From positions 1 through 52,012 of the forward strand of contig CANQCS010000013.1 in assembly GCA_947589745.1 (NCBI GenBank): 52,012 nucleotides of DNA. The letters run 5' to 3'. The DNA comes from an uncultured Oscillospiraceae bacterium. GTDB lineage: Bacteria > Bacillota > Clostridia > Oscillospirales > Oscillospiraceae. The translations under genes were made by a program, and so were the position numbers. This document shows positions 13,027 to 52,012 of the stretch, one piece after another. A model generated the notes under the pieces. The model had not been told where the DNA came from. It saw only the letters and a list, made by a program, of their open reading frames with translations, and searched no databases. Numbering within the stretch: the stretch's first letter is position 1; every line of letters starts with the position of its first letter.

Positions 13027-15720
13027 GTGAACCAGATTCAGGAAGATATTTTGATGCACTACGGCGTCAAGAGACGCTCCGGGCGGTATCCGTGGGGTTC
13101 CGGTAAAAAACCTTATCAACATGGCGGCGATTTCCTGGCTCGCTACGAGGAACTTCAGGGCCTTGGGAAGACCGAGAAAGAGATCGCGGAAGAGATGGGA
13201 CTTTCCACGACCGATCTCCGTATGCAGGTCCGAGTTGCCAAGCATGAGCGCAGGGCTTTGCAGGCTGACAGAGCCAGGTCCATGCGCGACGACGGCATGA
13301 CGCTTGACGAGATCGCGCAGGCTCTTGGCTTTGCCAATGATTCCTCGGTAAGAGCACTCCTCAATGAGAACACCTCAGCCAACAAAAATAAGGCTCGGGC
13401 CACTGCTGAGATCCTGAAGAAAGAGCTTGCCGAAAAAGGCGCCATCGACGTTGGTACCGGCGCGGAGCTGGAGCTGGGAGTGTCCTCTGGTGTTCTCCAG
13501 GAGGCGCTTTTCATTCTGGAAACCGAGGGCTATAACCGTTTCGGCGTTGGCGTTCCTCAGGTGAACGACCCTTCCAAGCGGACGATCACTCCCGTCATTG
13601 CAAACCCTGATATTGACCAGCGGTCTGTCTATGAGGACTATTCGCTGGTCAAGTCTGTGGGAGAATATCACTCTGTTGACGGCGGTGAGTCCTGGGACAA
13701 GCGTGAATATCCGGCCAGTATCGACTCTTCCCGGATCAAGATCATGTATGGCGATGAGGGCGGCTCTCTGAAAGATGGCGTGATCGAGCTGCGTCGCGGT
13801 GTTGAAGACCTCGATCTCGGTAATTCTCATTATGCGCAGGTCCGCATCCTGGTCGATGAAACGCATTACCTCAAGGGTATGGCGATGTACTCCGACGATA
13901 TGCCTGAAGGTGTTGACATTATATTTAACACCAACAAAAAGTCGGGTACTCCGCCTACCGAGGTCATGAAGCCGATCCAGGATGACCCTGATAACCCCTT
14001 TGGAGCGCTCATTAAGGCCGGAGGCCAGAGCCATTATATTTCAGAAGATGGAACAGAGCATCTGTCGGCGATCAATAAGCTGAAGGAAGAGGGAGACTGG
14101 GATAAGATGAGTAAGAATCTTTCTTCCCAGTTTCTGTCCAAGCAGCCCATCCAGCTCATCAAGAAGCAGTTGGATCTGACCTATGACGACGCTGCTGATG
14201 AGTTTGCTGAGATCTGTGCTCTGACCAATCCGACGGTAAAGCAGAAGCTCCTTCTGGACTTTGCCGATGAATGTGACTCCGCTGCGGTACATTTGAAGGC
14301 TGCCGCGCTTCCCAGGCAGAGTACGCAGGTCATCTTGCCTATCACGGCGATGAAGGAAACCGAGATCTACGCCCCGAATTATCGGGACGGCGAGCAGGTC
14401 GCCCTGGTTCGATATCCTCATGCGGGGACGTTTGAGATCCCGATCCTTACAGTCAACAACAAGAATGCTTCTGCTGTTTCCATTTTGGGTAAGAACATCC
14501 AGGATGCCGTCGGTATTAACCCGAAAGTCGCGGAACGGTTGTCTGGTGCGGATTTCGATGGCGATCAGGTTGTTGTGATACCCACCGGGGGGAGGGTCAA
14601 GATCAAATCCACCCCCGCCCTGGAGGGGTTGAAGGGTTTCGACCCGAAAACTGAATACTCTACCGAGGGGAAGACCGGCGTTCGGCTTCTTTCCAAGGCC
14701 GCTACCCAGAATGAGATGGGCAAGATCTCCAACCTGATCACGGACATGACCCTCAAGGGGGCCCCGGAGGAGGAGATCGTCAGGGCTGTGAAGCACAGCA
14801 TGGTGGTTATCGACGCTCATAAGCACAAGCTGGACTATAAGCAGTCTGAGAAGGATAACGGGATCGCGGAGCTCCGGAGCAAGTATCAGGGCTACGTGGA
14901 TGAGGATGGTAAGCAGAGAGGCGGAGCCTCCACCCTGCTGTCACGCCGGAAACAGGATGTCAATGTTCCTGAAACCCAGGGAAGCGGCCGGATTGATAAA
15001 GAAACCGGAAAGGTTGTCTATAAAAAGTCGGGACGTACCTATGTCGATCCTAAGACCGGGAAGACTGTCGAAGCTACCTCAAAGTCCAAACTGATCCTGG
15101 AGACCGATGACGTTCGTAAGCTCTCCTCTGGAACAGCACAGGAAGAGGCGTATGCAGACTATGCCAACAAAATGAAAGCTTTGGCCAATCAGGCGAGAAT
15201 CGAATACAGTACAACCCCTTCTTTGAAGCGTAACCCCAGTGCTACCCAGGCCTATGAACCAGAGGTGAATCGACTGAAGGCTGCTTTGAAAGAAGCGCAG
15301 GCTAATGCCCCTCTGGAGCGTGAAGCACAGCGTATTGCGAATGCTCGGGTCAAAGCTAAGGTTCAGGCCAATAATATTACCGATAAAGATGAGATTTCTA
15401 AGCTTCGCCGAACTGCGATCAACGATGCAAGAAATCAAACCGGCGCAAACGGAAAACAGAGTAGAATCGAAATTAGTGATGGCGAATGGGAAGCGATTCA
15501 GGCTGGTGCTGTTTCACATACAACCCTGAGTGAGATCCTTCGCTATGCCGATGCGGATTCTGTTCGCCAGCGTGCCACTCCAAAAGCGACGACACAGTTG
15601 TCACCTGCCAGAGTCAACCGGATCAAAGCGATGGCGAGCTCTGGGTATACAAATCGTGAGATCGCTGACACTCTGGGAATTTCGACGTCTGCTGTGTCAA
15701 AGTATCTGAACGGCGAATGA
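13027..15720 (+). CDS. RNA-polymerase-barrel-like (DFDGDQ) protein with three HTH motifs
   Basis: An 897-residue protein starting at GTG 13027 after GAGGAGGGT. Residues 11-26 are HYGVKRRSGRYPWGSG, an N-terminal segment found on phage proteins. Two helix-turn-helix motifs follow (about 44-64, KTEKEIAEEMGLS; about 90-110, MTLDEIAQALGF). Near residues 440-520 comes a run resembling the double-psi beta barrel of beta-prime/YonO/RdRP polymerases: 'ALVRYPHAG', then GADFDGDQ with Asp509, Asp511 and Asp513, the three metal-binding aspartates of the NADFDGDQM motif. The C-terminus ends in a third HTH (YTNREIADTLGISTSAVSKYL). A single-subunit DNA-dependent RNA polymerase is the natural reading; the partner barrel was not identified. 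Confidence 0.6.
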   Translation: MNQIQEDILMHYGVKRRSGRYPWGSGKKPYQHGGDFLARYEELQGLGKTEKEIAEEMGLSTTDLRMQVRVAKHERRALQADRARSMRDDGMTLDEIAQALGFANDSSVRALLNENTSANKNKARATAEILKKELAEKGAIDVGTGAELELGVSSGVLQEALFILETEGYNRFGVGVPQVNDPSKRTITPVIANPDIDQRSVYEDYSLVKSVGEYHSVDGGESWDKREYPASIDSSRIKIMYGDEGGSLKDGVIELRRGVEDLDLGNSHYAQVRILVDETHYLKGMAMYSDDMPEGVDIIFNTNKKSGTPPTEVMKPIQDDPDNPFGALIKAGGQSHYISEDGTEHLSAINKLKEEGDWDKMSKNLSSQFLSKQPIQLIKKQLDLTYDDAADEFAEICALTNPTVKQKLLLDFADECDSAAVHLKAAALPRQSTQVILPITAMKETEIYAPNYRDGEQVALVRYPHAGTFEIPILTVNNKNASAVSILGKNIQDAVGINPKVAERLSGADFDGDQVVVIPTGGRVKIKSTPALEGLKGFDPKTEYSTEGKTGVRLLSKAATQNEMGKISNLITDMTLKGAPEEEIVRAVKHSMVVIDAHKHKLDYKQSEKDNGIAELRSKYQGYVDEDGKQRGGASTLLSRRKQDVNVPETQGSGRIDKETGKVVYKKSGRTYVDPKTGKTVEATSKSKLILETDDVRKLSSGTAQEEAYADYANKMKALANQARIEYSTTPSLKRNPSATQAYEPEVNRLKAALKEAQANAPLEREAQRIANARVKAKVQANNITDKDEISKLRRTAINDARNQTGANGKQSRIEISDGEWEAIQAGAVSHTTLSEILRYADADSVRQRATPKATTQLSPARVNRIKAMASSGYTNREIADTLGISTSAVSKYLNGE

Positions 15721-44907: not shown

Positions 44908-45276
44908 ATGGCAGAGCAAAAGTACATCATTCTTGAGCAATTAAAGAAGGCCGTAGTTAAAATGCGGGCTGATTACCTTGCTCTTATTTCGCAAGCCGTA
45001 GGCGGCGAACGCCTGTCTGACATCGTTGTCACTCTGTTGGCAGAAAACTGGAATGACAATAAGCAGACTGTGTCTGATGAGAAGTTTCTCGCGGATAGTC
45101 ATTATTGTTACCTTGCCTGCGTCGATGCTGAGAACGATCAGGCCTATTCGGAAGCCGGTATTGCGCCAGATAACATCGTTGTCACAGGTGAGCTCACATT
45201 CAAGTGCACCACTGTACCGAAAGAAAATATCACTGTAGATATTATTCGACTGGAGGTCGAGACTGATAATGAGTAA
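44908..45276 (+). CDS. small fibre-associated protein
   Basis: A 122-residue protein, ATG 44908 after GAAAGGGTGTTCGTAT. After an N-terminal helix, the domain 'SDEKFLADSHYCYLACVDAEN' and 'GELTFKCTTVPKENITVDIIRLEV' matches the last 75 residues of the fibre protein at 41979, so it is a shared adaptor or tip module. The stop overlaps the start of the variable receptor protein, so the two are probably translationally coupled. Confidence 0.55.
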   Translation: MAEQKYIILEQLKKAVVKMRADYLALISQAVGGERLSDIVVTLLAENWNDNKQTVSDEKFLADSHYCYLACVDAENDQAYSEAGIAPDNIVVTGELTFKCTTVPKENITVDIIRLEVETDNE

Positions 45277-48142
45277 TCCGAATGTTGGCAAAGTTTTCAA
45301 CTTAGGCGGCGGATCAGGCGGTGGCGGCTCTCTGAAGCTGGAAGGCCTGACTGTTACCACTCTTCCCAAGAAGCAGACCTACAAGTCCGGAGAGAGCTTT
45401 AATCCGGAGGGTATGGTCGTCACGGCCAGTTACGGATATGGCATCACCGCGCCGGTGACCGGTTATACCGTGTCGCCTCAGATCCTGACGGACGGGGTCA
45501 CCGAGGTCACTATCACCTATACGGAAGGTCGTGTCACCAAGACTGCCACCGTCTCTGTTACGGTCGAGAAGGTCCTGAAGTCCATCGCCGTTACGACGGA
45601 ACCGCAGAAGATGACCTACGATTATCTGGAACAGTTCGATCCGGAGGGTATGGTCGTCACCGCGACGTTCTCTGATGAGTCCCAGGACAAGGCTGAGGGC
45701 TATACTTACCCGAAGACGGCATTCACCACACTGGGCCAGCAGGATGTCAAGATCGAATACACCTATGAAGGTGTCTCCAAGAGCACAACTCTGCAAGTCA
45801 CCGTCAAAGCAATCGAGGTCGCCATTCCCACACAGAAGGAAGCGCCTCGATACACCGGCCTGTCTCAGACACCGGAATGGAATGACTACGATCCCATCAA
45901 AATGGAGCTTTCTGGTGAGACAGAAGCCATTGAAGCCGGCAAGCATGACGTGACGTTCACCGCGAAGTACGGCTACGAGTTCCCCGATGCTCAGAGCGAG
46001 GCCACTGTGTCCTGGGAAATCAAGCGTGCTGTCATCGACGCTGTACCCACGCAGAGCAATGCTCTTATCGCAAACGGCAGTCCGCAGTATCCTGAGTGGA
46101 CTGGGTATGAGCGGGACAAGCTTACGATCGGTGGAGAAACGGTTGGTACCGAGGCCAGAGAGTACACCGCGACATTCACCCCCACGAAGAACTATGAGTG
46201 GTGGGATGAGACCATCGAAACCAAGAACGCCACCTGGATCATCACCAGTGTGCTGGTGACTATTCCCACTCAGACGAACATTCCCACTTACGATGGGTCC
46301 CCGAAGACCCCCGAATGGGAGAATTTCGACGAGACGAACTCTTCCGTTCAGGTCACCGAACAGACAGACGCCGGTGAATATGACGCTGTCTTCACGTTGA
46401 TCAACGGCATCTGGTCTGATCGGAGCACCGGAAAGAAGACGATCAAGTGGAAGATCGACCGTGCTGTTCTGGACGAGGTCCCGAAGCAGGACGGTTCTTT
46501 GGTCTACGACGGCAACCCGAAGATTCCGACCTGGAATGAGAAGTACGACGCTTCCAAGATGACCGTCTCGGTAGATGCCAAGGTGAATGCCGGAACAGAC
46601 TACACTGCCAGCTTTACCCCCACGAAGAACTATAAGTGGTGGGACGAGACGACTGACGCCAAGACGGCTACCTGGGCCATTAGCAAGGCTCCAAACACCA
46701 TTACACTGGCTCCACAGTCCATTACGCTGAATGCCAACACCAAGACGTCGAAGTTCACGGTGACCCGCAAGGGCAACGGCACCATCACGGCCACCTCGAA
46801 GAACACCGCTGCGGTCGCAATTGGTGAGATCAACCAGAACAGCGGTGAGGTCGAGGTTAAGAGCGTCAACGACACCAGCGGCGAGTCTGTAGTCACGGTC
46901 AAGGTGGCTGAGAGCGATAACTACCTGGCTCCGCAGGATGCGACGATCACCGTCAAGGCCAGCTTCCGGGAGTATTTCTACGGTTACGATCTGTCTCTTA
47001 CCGATCAGAACCCTGCGACTCGCGTCACTTATCCGGCTGACGTGGAGAACAGCGAGTTCGAGCCGGCGAAAATGAACTTCGGTTCGGCTTTCTCTTATGG
47101 CGGGTGGCCTTCCGTCCCGGGTGAGAAGTTCATGCCGAGGCCTTGTATGCTGAAGTTTGACGGGACCGTGGATTATTACCTCGATCCTGCTGACTACACG
47201 CAGAAGGCCGAGGGCGGCGCGTCTGATGTAAAGAGCGTCGCTTATGAGGGCAACGCCATGATGGAGTGGCCCAAAATCTACACCAAGCGCTGGGAGGACA
47301 GCAGCGGCTATCACTTCCGTTGTTCCGATGTCAAGGTGGACGACGATTATGAGTGCTGGTGCAACTATGATAAGAACAACAATGAGATCCCGCACTTCTA
47401 CACGCCGATCTATTTCGGTTCCAAGGATTCTTCTAACCGGCTGCGCTCTATCAGCGGGCAGAGCAACATGGTCTCGCAGAACGCCACGACGGAGATCAAC
47501 TACGCCAAGGCAAACGGCGCTGACTCTTGGTATACGGAGGTCCTCGCCGACCGGCAGCTCATCAACGATCTGCTGACTATGATGGGCAAGAGCACGGACG
47601 GTCAGACGGTATACGGTAACGGCGTGTGCAGCGCCAGCGCGGCTATTGCTCCGGGCACGATGGACAGCAAGGGAATGTTCTGGGGAGCGAGCGACAAGAC
47701 CTCCGGTGTCAAGGTCTTCGGCATGGAAAACTGGTGGGGCAATATCTTCCGGAGAATTGCCGGATGGACCATCTCTGGCGGTGTCCAGAAGGTGAAGATC
47801 ACGAGGGGCACCAAGGATGGAACCACTGCTGAGGATTACAATACCGATGGTACCGGTTATACGGAAATCACCGGTGTTAAGCTGACTTCCAGTGGGTACA
47901 TCAGCAAGATGAAAACGGAGAAATTCGGGCGGTTTCCCATGGCTGCGAGCGGCTCCAGTTCGACTTATGAAGCCGATTATGTGTACGCTGACAGCGGAAG
48001 CGGATACTATGCGAATGTTGGCGGCGATGGGAACGATGACCTGCATTGCGGTCCCTTCTACGCTGACCTCTATGCTACGCCTTCCTTTACGGCCACCGGC
48101 ATCGGCGCGGCCCTCTCTTGTAAACCGCTTGCCGCGGCGTAG
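45269..48142 (+). CDS. DGR-diversified receptor-binding protein with Ig-like repeats
   Basis: A 957-residue protein, ATG 45269 after GGAGGTCGAGACTGATA. Residues about 25-185 hold two bacterial Ig-like domains ('SGESFNPEGMVVTA', 'YLEQFDPEGMVVTA'). About 190-480 are four 70-residue repeats of the YDG/MBG type (PTQxxxPxYDGSPKTPEW), and about 490-565 another Ig-like domain. The last 390 residues look like the C-type-lectin/formylglycine-type fold, with 'ENWWGNIFRRIAGW'. The extreme C-terminus is the variable repeat. The protein is the probable tip adhesin: retargeting its lectin surface would alter host binding. Confidence 0.85.
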   Translation: MSNPNVGKVFNLGGGSGGGGSLKLEGLTVTTLPKKQTYKSGESFNPEGMVVTASYGYGITAPVTGYTVSPQILTDGVTEVTITYTEGRVTKTATVSVTVEKVLKSIAVTTEPQKMTYDYLEQFDPEGMVVTATFSDESQDKAEGYTYPKTAFTTLGQQDVKIEYTYEGVSKSTTLQVTVKAIEVAIPTQKEAPRYTGLSQTPEWNDYDPIKMELSGETEAIEAGKHDVTFTAKYGYEFPDAQSEATVSWEIKRAVIDAVPTQSNALIANGSPQYPEWTGYERDKLTIGGETVGTEAREYTATFTPTKNYEWWDETIETKNATWIITSVLVTIPTQTNIPTYDGSPKTPEWENFDETNSSVQVTEQTDAGEYDAVFTLINGIWSDRSTGKKTIKWKIDRAVLDEVPKQDGSLVYDGNPKIPTWNEKYDASKMTVSVDAKVNAGTDYTASFTPTKNYKWWDETTDAKTATWAISKAPNTITLAPQSITLNANTKTSKFTVTRKGNGTITATSKNTAAVAIGEINQNSGEVEVKSVNDTSGESVVTVKVAESDNYLAPQDATITVKASFREYFYGYDLSLTDQNPATRVTYPADVENSEFEPAKMNFGSAFSYGGWPSVPGEKFMPRPCMLKFDGTVDYYLDPADYTQKAEGGASDVKSVAYEGNAMMEWPKIYTKRWEDSSGYHFRCSDVKVDDDYECWCNYDKNNNEIPHFYTPIYFGSKDSSNRLRSISGQSNMVSQNATTEINYAKANGADSWYTEVLADRQLINDLLTMMGKSTDGQTVYGNGVCSASAAIAPGTMDSKGMFWGASDKTSGVKVFGMENWWGNIFRRIAGWTISGGVQKVKITRGTKDGTTAEDYNTDGTGYTEITGVKLTSSGYISKMKTEKFGRFPMAASGSSSTYEADYVYADSGSGYYANVGGDGNDDLHCGPFYADLYATPSFTATGIGAALSCKPLAAA
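48010..48119 (+). repeat. DGR variable repeat (VR)
   Basis: 110 bases at the 3' end of the receptor gene, aligned without gaps to 48243-48352 (offset 233). Fourteen positions differ: 13 are A in the template and G, C or T here, one is T to G (48029). The changed codons are template AAY: Asn becomes Asp, Asp, His, Asp, Ala, Phe, Ala and Gly. This adenine-specific pattern is the DGR hallmark. Confidence 0.95.
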
Positions 48143-48147
48143 CCGCG
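48133..48147 (+). promoter_or_regulatory. hairpin just downstream of VR
   Basis: CGCGGC (48133-48138), loop GTA, GCCGCG (48142-48147): a perfect inverted repeat spanning the stop codon and lying 13 bases after the VR. Hairpin or cruciform elements at this place are needed for target recognition in well-studied DGRs; here the stem is 6 bp with a 3-base loop. Confidence 0.55.
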
Positions 48148-48242
48148 TAAAGGAGAGGACGGGAGAACCTTGGGTCTCCGGAGAAACGGATTCAAAATGG
48201 AGCGCCTGCTCCTAAAAACAGGTAGGGGTATGCACTGCGCCC

Positions 48243-48352
48243 TGCGAATGTTGGCGGCAATTGGAACAATGACCTGAATTGCGGTCCCTTCTACGCTAAC
48301 CTCTATAATACGCCTTCCAATACGAACACCAACATCGGCGCGGCCCTATCTT
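48243..48352 (+). repeat. DGR template repeat (TR)
   Basis: A non-coding 110-base copy of the VR, 100 bases after the receptor gene stop and 173 bases before the reverse transcriptase. Read in the VR frame it would give Asn at nearly every varied position (NWNNDLN, ANLYNTPSNTNTN), the AAY codons that cannot mutate at A to a stop. The 3' 15-20 bases (ATCGGCGCGGCCCT) are unchanged and serve as the candidate initiation-of-homing sequence. The 48143-48242 spacer can form GGAGC/GCTCC and GGAGA/TCTCC hairpins. Confidence 0.95.
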
Positions 48353-48407
48353 ACCTCAACGAGACTCTACAACATATAATGCAGTGCATATCGCTGCTGA
48401 ATGCAGT

Positions 48408-48455
48408 AAGGGCGGGGTGGCTTCTGTTGCTCCGCCCTTCCTCACCACTTGGTGA
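48408..48455 (+). ncRNA. paired hairpins in the DGR RNA downstream of TR
   Basis: AAGGGCGG (48408-48415) pairs with CCGCCCTT (48432-48439), then TCACCA (48442-48447) with TGGTGA (48450-48455). They lie between the TR and the reverse transcriptase start, the region that in the Bordetella phage system primes cDNA synthesis. The role here is inference. Confidence 0.5.
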
Positions 48456-48525
48456 AAATCAACTCGGTGCAAGCACCCGTTAGTATCTGAAAGAGGCTGA
48501 ACGCGGGTGAGAGGATAAGAGAAGA

Positions 48526-49761
48526 ATGAAATCCTACAGACACTTGTTTGAAATCTGCATATCCGAAACCAATCGCCGAAAAGCCATCAAGCAGGCAAAA
48601 CGCACCAAGCGTGTCCGAAAAATGCTGAAACGGCGGCATATGTCGGATGATGAACTGCTCGATAGCTCCTTGGAATGGATCATCAACTACGAGAATGCCG
48701 AACATACTCCGGTCATCATCCAAGATGGGACTGCTCAGAAAGAGCGGTCTATCGTCGTTCCCACTTTGGAGGAGTTGATCGTCCAGCATTGCATCTGCAA
48801 GGCTCTGGAAGAGATGTTCTGGCATGGGATGTATAAGCATAGCTATGCGAGCTTACCGAAACGGGGCTCCCATAAAGCGAAGAAAGTCATAGAGAAATGG
48901 ATAGACACTGATCCGAAGAATGTGAAGTATGTTCTGAAAATGGACATTCATCACTTCTTTGACAGTATTCCGCATGATATTTTGAAGGCAAAGCTTGCCC
49001 GGAAAATTCACGACGACCGAATGCTCGATCTGCTGTTCAAGATCATCGATGTGGTCGATGTCGGTATTCCTCTTGGCTTCTATACTTCCCAATGGCTCTC
49101 CAATTGGTTTCTCCAGGAGCTGGACCATTACGTCAAAGAGCAGCTCCATGCTGTCCACTATGTTCGGTATATGGATGACATGGTCGTTTTCGGGTCAAAC
49201 AAGAAAGTCTTGCACCAAATGCGCATTGCTATCTCCAAGTACATGGCCGAGTATTACGGCCTTGAGCTGAAGGGAGATTGGCAGGTATTCCGTTTCTCAT
49301 ATCTTGTCAAGAAAAACGGTGAAATCAAGGAGAAGGGCAGACCTCTTGATTTCATGGGCTTCGTGTTCTATCGAAATCGGACGGTCCTCCGAGAGTCCAT
49401 CATGCTCAAAGCAACACGAAAAGCTCGTAAGATCCACAAGAAACCCTATCAGGGCCGCAAACCAACTGTACATGACTATCGTCAGATGATGTCGTACCTT
49501 GGGTGGATCGACTGCACGGACACCTATAATATGTACCGTAAATTCATCAAGCCCCGTGTCAATTTCCAACGGATGAAGCGGTATATTTCCCGTTACGACA
49601 GGCATAGCGACAGGTACATCTATGAGCGGCTTGTAAAACGCTATATGCCGAAAGGAGGTACGCTGAGTGGAGCTCACCTACATTCACGCCGAAAGCGCCG
49701 TCCGGCCTCCCGAAATCGAGGTCGGCGTAACTACAGTCTACCTGCGTCGCAACATTGTTGA
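48526..49761 (+). CDS. DGR reverse transcriptase
   Basis: A 411-residue reverse transcriptase. Motif A is KMDIHHFFDSI (Asp140). The DGR-type motif GIPLGFYTSQW (residues 180-190) replaces the QGxxxSP of group II intron enzymes, and the active site is YMDD (215-218). There is no maturase or HNH domain. It makes cDNA from the TR RNA with errors at A, then writes it into the VR. ATG 48526 follows GAGAGGATAAGAGAAGA. The last 95 bases overlap the next gene, so the C-terminal 30 basic residues may be dispensable. No Avd-type helical accessory gene was found beside it. Confidence 0.93.
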   Translation: MKSYRHLFEICISETNRRKAIKQAKRTKRVRKMLKRRHMSDDELLDSSLEWIINYENAEHTPVIIQDGTAQKERSIVVPTLEELIVQHCICKALEEMFWHGMYKHSYASLPKRGSHKAKKVIEKWIDTDPKNVKYVLKMDIHHFFDSIPHDILKAKLARKIHDDRMLDLLFKIIDVVDVGIPLGFYTSQWLSNWFLQELDHYVKEQLHAVHYVRYMDDMVVFGSNKKVLHQMRIAISKYMAEYYGLELKGDWQVFRFSYLVKKNGEIKEKGRPLDFMGFVFYRNRTVLRESIMLKATRKARKIHKKPYQGRKPTVHDYRQMMSYLGWIDCTDTYNMYRKFIKPRVNFQRMKRYISRYDRHSDRYIYERLVKRYMPKGGTLSGAHLHSRRKRRPASRNRGRRNYSLPASQHC

Positions 49762-49969
49762 AACGCAGCGTCAGGAGATGGACCGTGAGGAGACTCAGAC
49801 CATCTGGACTTATGAAGAGGCGCAGATGTCCAAGGACCAGGCTTTGTTCCTGTTGACTACCAATCAGGGACAGCTCGATCAGAGCATTCAGGACGCTGAC
49901 GCCATGAACGTCGATCAGGAGTTCCGTTTGACTCTGCTGGAGCTGAGTTTTTCGGATTCTGAAATCTAA
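49667..49969 (+). CDS. small tail-region protein after the DGR
   Basis: A 100-residue acidic protein; GTG 49667 lies 8 bases after AAAGGAGG, inside the end of the reverse transcriptase gene. Pattern 'ELTYIHAESAVRPPEIEV', then an acidic helix 'TQTIWTYEEAQMSKDQ'. It looks like a small phage tail protein normally found next to XkdX-type proteins, not like Avd (shorter, and no four-helix pattern). Thus the DGR cassette seems inserted into the tail operon. Confidence 0.55.
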   Translation: MELTYIHAESAVRPPEIEVGVTTVYLRRNIVETQRQEMDREETQTIWTYEEAQMSKDQALFLLTTNQGQLDQSIQDADAMNVDQEFRLTLLELSFSDSEI

Positions 49970-50137: not shown

Positions 50138-52012
50138 CTACAGCCCATATTTCTGCGTGAGCTGCTTGAAAAATGCATTGGCCTCGTAGACCGCCTGGTC
50201 GGGAAGCTTTCTGGTGAGCAGCCGTCTCGGTATCATGAGGCCGGATACGTTCTTCACCTTTTTCCGAAACACGACCCGTTCCCGGTCCAGGTGCAATGCT
50301 TTGATCTCGTATCCTTGGCTTGTCCAGGAATCGGAGATACAGTAGAGCCTTGGACTGGGAATGATGGCGTGAAACGGAAAGCCTTCTTCCTGCCAGAGCG
50401 GCGAGCCGTTTCCCGGCAGCTCATCCAGCCAGAATGCCTCGTAGAAATAGGCTTCCCAATCGAGGTCGTCCCCGAGGATATTTTCGATCTCTTGGAATGT
50501 CATGGCCAGCGGTGTCTCTTCCGTCCGATGGAAGAAGTCCGTGAGTTCCAGGTAGGGAGAGTATTTTTCGGGGGCGTCCTCCCTCACATCCTCCAGAAGC
50601 TCAAAGAAGTCCGGAGGTGTCACGGTCGATCCTTCATTTTCAGAAGTGAAGACGTCATATCCGCACCGGCTGTGGATGTAGAGAAGATTCTGTACTCTGC
50701 GGCCTTGGCCAACGCTTTTCTCTACTACCGTTACATCCTGATCCGGCAGCATGGATTGACCGCAATACGCGCAGCGACCTCCCTGTCTCCTCCAGACAGA
50801 GGCATATTTTCCGGTATGCTTTTGGATCATCCGGCGATATTTGAGCCACATGGTGTAATCCATGTCCAGATAGAAGTTGAAGCTGCTCTTTACAGGCTTG
50901 TGCCATACGATCTCCGCCGGCGCGAGCCGTTCCACGCGGACCGTGTGGTCCTCTGGAAGGACGAATACATAAAAACCATCCTCTTTGATCCAAAACTTGC
51001 CTCTCACGGTCTCCGGTTTCCAGCGTTTATATTTTTCGGACAACCGCTTGACCAGAAGGCCGTTGACGTAGCTGTCCATATCTCGGAACGCAAAATAGGC
51101 ATCCGAGTTGGTTCGTTGGGCACTGGCCCAGTGAGCGAGCTTTTTGTTGATGGCTTCGATCAAAGACCGCTGAGAGCCTTTGTAATCAAGGATCAGATGA
51201 GCGAGCTCCAACTTTTTCTTCTGGATATTTCGTCCCGATGGGGTGACCATCAGAATGCCGTCGACCTTTTGATAGTGCCGGCCCACATAATCGAATCCCT
51301 CGTTGATGTGGACAGCACGGGCTTTTTCCGCGCTGATACGGAGTCCTCGTTCTCTCAGAAAAGCGGAAACGATCTCCAGGATCTGATCTGCCTGCGCCCA
51401 GCTTCCGGCGGTGATAGCCATGTCATCGGCAAATCGAAAGAGATGTCCGTATGGATATTCCACGCCGCCCTTCGGATAGAGATGATCGTAGAGATAGGTT
51501 TGCAGCCCATCCAGCATCATATTTCCAAGGACTGGGGAGAGGGATGTCCCGAGAGAGATCCCCTGGTCGATCGCAAATAACTCGTTCTGGAGAATAAAGC
51601 CTGCCTTGAGGAATTTGCGAAGCACTGATTTATCCATCGGGATATTTCGGAGCAGCCATTGATGGTTGGCGCTATCGTAGAAAAGTGTGACATCAGCCAG
51701 GACAACGATCTCAGGGCCTCCTTCCCTCTCAAGCTCTTGGGTCAGATAGGCATGCAGGTCCAAAGGAGACCGAAATTTGCGTGCAGAGAACGACATGTGA
51801 TCCGCGGTGGATTCTGCCACAGGGTCCAGCGCGAACCGATACAGCGCCTGCATCGCCCGGTCTTTGGCGACTGGGATGTGAGCGATCCGGTGTTCGCCGT
51901 TGGAGCGGACTTCCGCGATCTCCTTATGCAGATATGGCAGTGGGCGGTATCCACGAGCGGTCAGGGAGAAGGCCGCTTTCATCTTCTGCTCAGGAGTTTC
52001 CCATTTGACACC
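50138..52012 (-). CDS. group-II-like reverse transcriptase, 5' end outside window
   Basis: On the minus strand an open frame enters from the right edge and ends at TAG 50138 (at least 624 residues). Numbering from Met at 51982: motif A 'LADVTLFYDS' (Asp97), 'QGISLGTSLSP' (140-150), active site FADD (184-187), then a maturase-like X region ('RTNSDAYFAFRDMDSYVNGL'). A zinc-type CAYC (about 404) with a late 'YIHSRC' resembles an HNH module, but VVEKS stands where the catalytic VHHI would be. About 190 further residues have no match I know. No group II domain V is visible 3' of the gene, which abuts the XkdX gene. Confidence 0.75.
   Translation of the reverse strand, partial: GVKWETPEQKMKAAFSLTARGYRPLPYLHKEIAEVRSNGEHRIAHIPVAKDRAMQALYRFALDPVAESTADHMSFSARKFRSPLDLHAYLTQELEREGGPEIVVLADVTLFYDSANHQWLLRNIPMDKSVLRKFLKAGFILQNELFAIDQGISLGTSLSPVLGNMMLDGLQTYLYDHLYPKGGVEYPYGHLFRFADDMAITAGSWAQADQILEIVSAFLRERGLRISAEKARAVHINEGFDYVGRHYQKVDGILMVTPSGRNIQKKKLELAHLILDYKGSQRSLIEAINKKLAHWASAQRTNSDAYFAFRDMDSYVNGLLVKRLSEKYKRWKPETVRGKFWIKEDGFYVFVLPEDHTVRVERLAPAEIVWHKPVKSSFNFYLDMDYTMWLKYRRMIQKHTGKYASVWRRQGGRCAYCGQSMLPDQDVTVVEKSVGQGRRVQNLLYIHSRCGYDVFTSENEGSTVTPPDFFELLEDVREDAPEKYSPYLELTDFFHRTEETPLAMTFQEIENILGDDLDWEAYFYEAFWLDELPGNGSPLWQEEGFPFHAIIPSPRLYCISDSWTSQGYEIKALHLDRERVVFRKKVKNVSGLMIPRRLLTRKLPDQAVYEANAFFKQLTQKYGL

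Follow-up and report, generated by a model that had tools for sequence, protein, structure and literature searches.

A diversity-generating retroelement of a tailed phage, directed at the C-terminal module of a tail protein and lacking a recognisable Avd

A reverse transcriptase (RT) gene close to two near-identical repeats, one of them at the 3' end of a tail gene, raises the question of whether these parts form a diversity-generating retroelement (DGR) and, if so, what it rewrites and by what route. The window, by which we mean the whole stretch of DNA analysed (52,012 bases), is one entire contig of an assembly of 252 contigs that is 98.8% complete. Its terminase, portal, head, tape-measure, Dit and tail-endopeptidase genes indicated that it is from a tailed phage. 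Oscillospiraceae and other gut-type assemblies contain a small number of RTs closely related to that of the window, from which we infer that the host of the phage is a gut Firmicute. The analyses below leave us with very little doubt that the locus is a phage DGR, without a recognisable Avd gene, that diversifies the C-terminal module of a tail protein. Its parts lie on the + strand in the order target gene with the variable repeat (VR) at its 3' end, template repeat (TR), RT-18 RNA, RT gene and companion ORF, the TR being outside the target and adjoining the RT gene:

45269..48142, + strand: DGR target, a 957-residue tail protein with an Ig-like N-terminal part and a C-terminal variable module (ORF, Big_3, phrog_5302)
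46889..48142, + strand: C-terminal 417 residues of the target, a likely C-type-lectin/FGE-like module that carries the VR (AlphaFold2, Foldseek, profile, hhalign)
48010..48119, + strand: VR (ungapped alignment to the TR; its end is 20 bases before the target stop codon)
48104..48122, + strand: GC-rich run GGCGCGGCC and VR-type IMH-like end CTCTCTTGTA (pattern common to many relatives)
48133..48147, + strand: candidate IMH-side hairpin/cruciform (6-bp GC stem, 3-nt loop, spanning the target stop codon)
48243..48352, + strand: TR, outside the target and RT genes (ungapped alignment to the VR)
48443..48523, + strand: RT-18 structured RNA, Rfam RF03021, in the TR-RT spacer (44.9 bits; covariation in relatives)
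48526..49761, + strand: DGR reverse transcriptase, 411 aa, YMDD (ORF, motifs, tree, best PDB chain 8ub7_A)
49667..49969, + strand: acidic companion ORF, 100 aa, PHROG_20201 match (overlaps the RT 3' end by 95 bases)

Recomputation of the repeats returned exactly the coordinates and the gapless 110-base alignment of the preliminary description, with an offset of 233 bases and 14 differences. Thirteen of these were at TR adenines and one was at a TR thymine (TGG in the TR, GGG in the VR), which by TR base is A 13/28, C 0/33, G 0/22 and T 1/27. The contrast between adenines (13/28 changed) and the other bases (1/82) was strong (Fisher p=1.7e-8), and this figure rests on the coordinates of the preliminary description, not on our pair finder. 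Read in the frame of the target, 10 of the 36 TR codons were AAY, and in eight of the 10 changed codons a template Asn was replaced in the VR by Asp, His, Ala, Phe or Gly, in keeping with the earlier reading that the template codes mostly for Asn where the VR is varied.

The same specificity was seen in relatives of the locus. A first scan identified adenine-specific pairs in 37 of 42 IMG/VR relatives; G-directed control matches at many loci in that scan were the expected mirror image of A-to-G changes. A second scan identified such a pair near the RT in 62 of 72 fetched RT-bearing records, a set that includes the window and some records that overlap one another, and from which L074 (no RT) had been dropped. 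Seven of the 10 records without a pair had <450 bases upstream of the RT, and L031, L036 and L037 had >4.8 kb upstream, yet no repeat pair was found there. Pooled over 56 distinct pairs, 883/1534 adenines and 16/4707 other bases differed, a statistic that is biased because the pair finder passes adenine mismatches free.

The last of the adenine differences (TR 48348, VR 48115) is located beyond the GC-rich run. In most relatives compared, the TR has A at this place where the VR has C, T or G (L006 is among the exceptions), and a second place with A in the TR and another base in the VR followed 5 bases on (48353 here) in many relatives, with exceptions that include L018 and L040. Both places were fixed in four relatives with an identical TR that are described below, all of which had C in the VR at the first. 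Based on this pattern of A in the TR against a non-A in the VR after the GC-rich run, which recurs in most relatives compared, the difference at 48348/48115 is best read as an IMH*/IMH difference, and 12 mutagenised positions would then remain. The earlier count of 13 of 14 differences at template adenines was therefore correct as a count, with the qualification that one of the 13 is probably fixed and not a product of mutagenesis. A candidate hairpin lies 13 bases after the VR; its 6-bp stem and 3-nt loop fall outside the range given for phage DGRs in passages of PMC3240598, which describe a hairpin/cruciform 4-34 bp after the VR with a 7-10 bp GC-rich stem and a GRNA tetraloop. We rejected a conserved cruciform after the VR, as the feature was uniform only in the nearest relatives of the window and not further out.

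The RT ORF is open and contains both motifs of the preliminary description, GIPLGFYTSQ and YMDD. A tree of 52 rows placed the window RT with BPP-1 Brt and the RTs of VP58.5 and other DGRs (split support 100/98), with 11 group II- or retron-like RTs outside the DGR side, so that the DGR clade membership proposed earlier as a check was borne out. Within the tree, L006 was nearer to the window RT than were L002, L003, L005 and L044. A phmmer search of the PDB gave 8ub7 first (E 5.8e-23), with group II RTs behind it (1.1e-13 and weaker). We take 8ub7 to be BPP-1 Brt, its chain having 328 aa, the same as the BPP-1 RT analysed. The best NCBIfam match of the window RT was a group II model at 111.6 bits, well below the cut-off of 300. 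Together, the TR/VR pair and the RT indicated a genuine DGR on one phage tail gene.

Nine other RTs in the collection (L064, L092-L099) carry Asn for the second Asp of YxDD, as YMDN, HMDN or QMDN. Their loci have the RT-18 RNA (below cut-off in L099), and L094, on contig C10, is a second DGR of the same host assembly as the window. At the seven MDN-type loci with a TR/VR pair, 107/229 template adenines and 0/697 other bases differed, as scored with a finder that tolerates adenine mismatches. The scattering of these RTs in the tree suggests more than one origin, or losses. A literature search for YMDN or YXDN in RTs returned only one unrelated paper (for YXDN). In the crAss-like cr52_1 (L124), translation of the annotated RT by the standard code runs into a stop, which may be a recoded codon.

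To the preliminary description, many adenine-position variants in the VR beside an invariant TR would be the sign of an active element. This pattern was found in four relatives with identical TRs, L002, L003 and L005 from IMG/VR and L044 from an Oscillospiraceae contig, which have the layout of the window, a TR different from that of the window and RTs ~80% identical to the window RT. Across the four records, 27/113 VR columns were variable, 26 at TR adenines and one at a TR G, against 26/1300 in the target upstream, 1/165 in the VR-TR gap, 0/113 in the TR, 1/170 in the TR-RT gap and 2/1221 in the RT. L003 and L044 form a natural pair that catches diversification in a relative: their targets (0/1300), TRs (0/113) and RTs (0/1221) do not differ, and their VRs differ at 16/113 positions. 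Neither of the two findings that the preliminary description held would count against a DGR, an invariant VR and an RT outside the DGR clade, was encountered, the VR having been compared among relatives. A 32-base pattern from the window TR had no match in viral_contigs, so that this TR was represented there by no further copy. Judged from these relatives, in which diversification is seen, the DGR is very probably active in the window's phage also, which very probably can make many variants of one tail protein. The VR of L044 seems to have a one-base insertion near its end, and one Oscillospiraceae assembly holds both L044 and L045, related DGRs that lie on separate contigs and differ in their TRs.

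The spacer between the TR and the RT gene contains a match to the Rfam family RT-18 (44.9 bits against a gathering threshold of 41.3) that ends two bases before the RT start codon. The family was above cut-off in 38 of the 59 relatives or reference loci that were scanned with Rfam, a part of all loci collected. Searches with the RNA model of 300, 391 and 398 genomes (overlapping sets), chosen independently of the RT, gave 14 matches outside the window locus, two of them below cut-off. All 14 were just upstream of an RT and 13 had a TR/VR pair; at L092 no pair was found, relaxed search included. We aligned 28 loci, 26 of them distinct, by sequence without reference to structure; 87.7% of cells paired, 13 of 15 pairs were changed on both sides and covariation was 0.621, compared with 0.07-0.13 for slid partners, figures that are favourable to the model's structure since the loci were chosen by their score above the Rfam model. 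The outermost pair of helix 2 (columns 33/93) was unpaired in 20 of 26 sequences. Based on the position of the RNA-model matches, their TR/VR pairs and the covariation, we take RT-18 to be the spacer RNA shared by a large group of phage DGRs, and this Rfam family, entered there simply as 'RT-18 RNA' and without stated function, can be assigned to DGRs; the literature searches made found nothing on its function. Another RNA, RT-4 (RF03025), sits between the TR and RT of a related DGR (L043, 4890-4986).

Avd was not required for DGR membership in this study. The Avd model NF033474 matched both positive controls (BPP-1 and VP58.5) and none of 35 records, which included the whole host assembly and some fragments. 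Passages of PMC5883640 likewise describe several Faecalibacterium phage DGRs without Avd, with Avd homologs in Mushu and Lagaffe only. Such DGRs without a recognisable Avd make priming and homing without this protein a testable question.

The companion ORF was found beside DGR-like RTs only, but not beside every one. Its profile gave 86 matches in the fetched loci, 86/86 beside the RT end, in a set that includes some places more than once, as loci fetched again, and in which most loci were chosen by their RT. There was no match in 56 of 142 RT-bearing loci; among these were group II controls and also DGRs of a second RT-18 group (L091, L092, L094-L098), in most of which a different small ORF overlaps the RT end (L124, read in a frame that stops early, was left out of the comparison of RT ends). 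Searches seeded with small proteins of this family retrieved 11 records from 8 phages, and an RT ended at that point in every one whose neighbours were viewed separately, a set that leaves aside the RefSeq copy of Taranis; Epona and Arawn were themselves seeds. The matches in Roos, Taranis and Pioen covered residues 73-99 only, with E about 1e-3. The seeded searches also identified 10 IMG/VR loci, each with an RT, L141 and L142 being the only contigs among them that were new to the collection, and three further companion seeds found nothing in phages. PHROG_20201 had four matches in 391 genomes (the window, G344, G430 and G348), all four beside an RT with a TR/VR pair. As the sensitivity of the companion search was limited (the profile found 1/61 genomes), a generic tail-module gene is a possible identity for this ORF.

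The pI of the companion protein is 4.14 (4.05-4.75 in 23 aligned members), and it was modelled, with low confidence (pLDDT 67), as long strands with helices towards the C-terminus. A role as Avd stand-in was weakened by the pI of 9.55 of BPP-1 Avd and by a low-confidence model with no four-helix bundle. The ORF may be the non-Pfam DGR-associated protein that a passage of PMC10053308 credits to an earlier survey. We also considered, as a tentative idea that we think is probably wrong, that the DGR of the window comes from a lineage without Avd whose compact RT-18 RNA would take over the work that Avd assists in BPP-1 (docking and cDNA priming), and that a part of this lineage, including the window, would have a dedicated acidic companion (PHROG_20201) across the RT stop. 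The lack of the companion at 56/142 RT-bearing loci makes this less likely.

The target gene comes after the tape-measure, Dit and tail-endopeptidase genes, and its product matched phrog_5302 (tail) with E 4.6e-93. It has two Big_3 Ig-like stretches, in agreement with the Ig repeats described earlier for this 957-residue protein. The last 417 residues recur in relatives, whose uncut open frames there have ~412 to 989 aa around this common module, so that the Ig part seems to have been added N-terminally to a core module. An AlphaFold2 model of the module (mean pLDDT 92.9) gave one clear match in a Foldseek search of the PDB, the DGR variable protein TaqVP 5vf4 (E 4.1e-8, TM-scores 0.45/0.49), and weak matches to Mtd variants (1yu0, E 6.3e-3), PvdO, the formylglycine-generating enzyme FGE and TvpA (E 0.006 to 0.16). 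A sequence profile of the module also found 5vf4 (E 3e-6), homology to BPP-1 Mtd was weak and limited to the C-terminal end (probability 39%), and none of the 35 modules compared had a Pfam match. The model and fold search support the lectin-like end proposed earlier, and the module likely has a C-type lectin fold of the FGE/Mtd type. The protein would presumably serve as an adhesin, and rewriting of its VR may, by analogy, switch host range.

Might the locus be something other than a working DGR? An ordinary duplication of a gene end beside a chance group II intron or retron RT would suit the NCBIfam result, in which a group II model scored best, well below its cut-off, and is to us next to impossible given the adenine-specific TR/VR differences, the hypervariable VR beside a constant TR in relatives, the position of the RT among DGR RTs and the layout shared by most relatives. 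A decayed DGR, in which the TR and VR are relics of a system dead in the window's phage, would be consistent with VR variation being known from relatives and with the lack of viral_contigs matches to the window TR pattern. We consider decay improbable, however, as the RT ORF is open with its motifs kept, the TR frame is still AAY-rich, only one difference is at a non-adenine, the VR of near relatives is clearly variable and the RT-18 RNA is above cut-off.

A working DGR could also diversify binding to mucus, glycans or another surface and leave host range unchanged. The Ig-like stretches of the target fit this idea, and passages of PMC5883640 and PMC11792537 suggest that Ig-rich or Hoc-like DGR targets of Faecalibacterium phages adhere to mucus. 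The place of the target gene after those for the tape measure, Dit and tail endopeptidase, the tail PHROG match, the TaqVP/Mtd-like module and the core module in 412-445 aa frames of several relatives, which have no room for a long Ig part, argue against it, and we give the surface-binding idea about one chance in four.

DGRs of gut phages are already published, and the window's DGR illustrates this known kind well. Passages of PMC8144416 describe three phage-dominated DGR clades, near-universal adenine bias and C-Lec targets, and passages of PMC5883640 and PMC11792537 describe DGRs, some of them active, in Faecalibacterium prophages. The DGR of the Faecalibacterium phage FP_Epona (PMC5883640; L121) has the same order of target, RT, small ORF and XkdX as the window, a target homologous to the window module (hhalign 99.9%), an RT 40% identical to the window RT and, again, no Avd by the NF033474 model. 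It differs in that its target of 415 aa is too short for the Ig extension and in that no RT-18 match was found in this phage. The Butyrivibrio phages Arawn, Idris and Closwp03, from other hosts, have RTs 44% identical to the window RT and a small ORF that overlaps the RT end as in the window; Arawn has an RT-18-like RNA at 34.6 bits, below cut-off. The Bordetella phage BPP-1 (L075) shares with the window a TR, a VR, an RT, a tail target of weak similarity and a TR-RT spacer with a structured RNA; in BPP-1 the spacer has 144 bases and its RNA is RF03022 (Phage_DGR), not RT-18. BPP-1 encodes Avd between the VR and TR, whereas none was recognised in the window.

The general homing scheme of BPP-1 suggests how the window's DGR would act. 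An RNA spanning the TR through the RT-18 spacer would be copied by the RT, which would misincorporate opposite adenines, and the GC-rich run and IMH-like end would direct the mutated cDNA to the 3' end of the tail-protein gene, where it would take the place of the VR. Residues of the lectin-like module at the C-terminus of the target would be rewritten in this way and the TR left unchanged. TR/VR adenine specificity, RT membership, a conserved spacer RNA and VR change beside a constant TR in relatives can be read in the sequences compared. What is known of BPP-1 further predicts a transcript that covers the TR and the spacer, priming, homing of the cDNA, and either receptor binding or a shift of host range. 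As no Avd was recognised in the 35 records, the mechanism of BPP-1 may apply here in altered form.

Two other genes of the window were noted. A second RT ORF (50138-51982, - strand) is antiparallel to the DGR, open at the contig end and group II-like, with a weak HNH match and DUF7662, and its nearest relative among the fetched loci, L109, is 52% identical. A group II intron around this ORF was rejected, as no Rfam match was found nearby. An 897-aa protein (13027-15720) with HTH matches at its C-terminus matched phrog_4291, which PHROGs labels as an RNA-dependent RNA polymerase.
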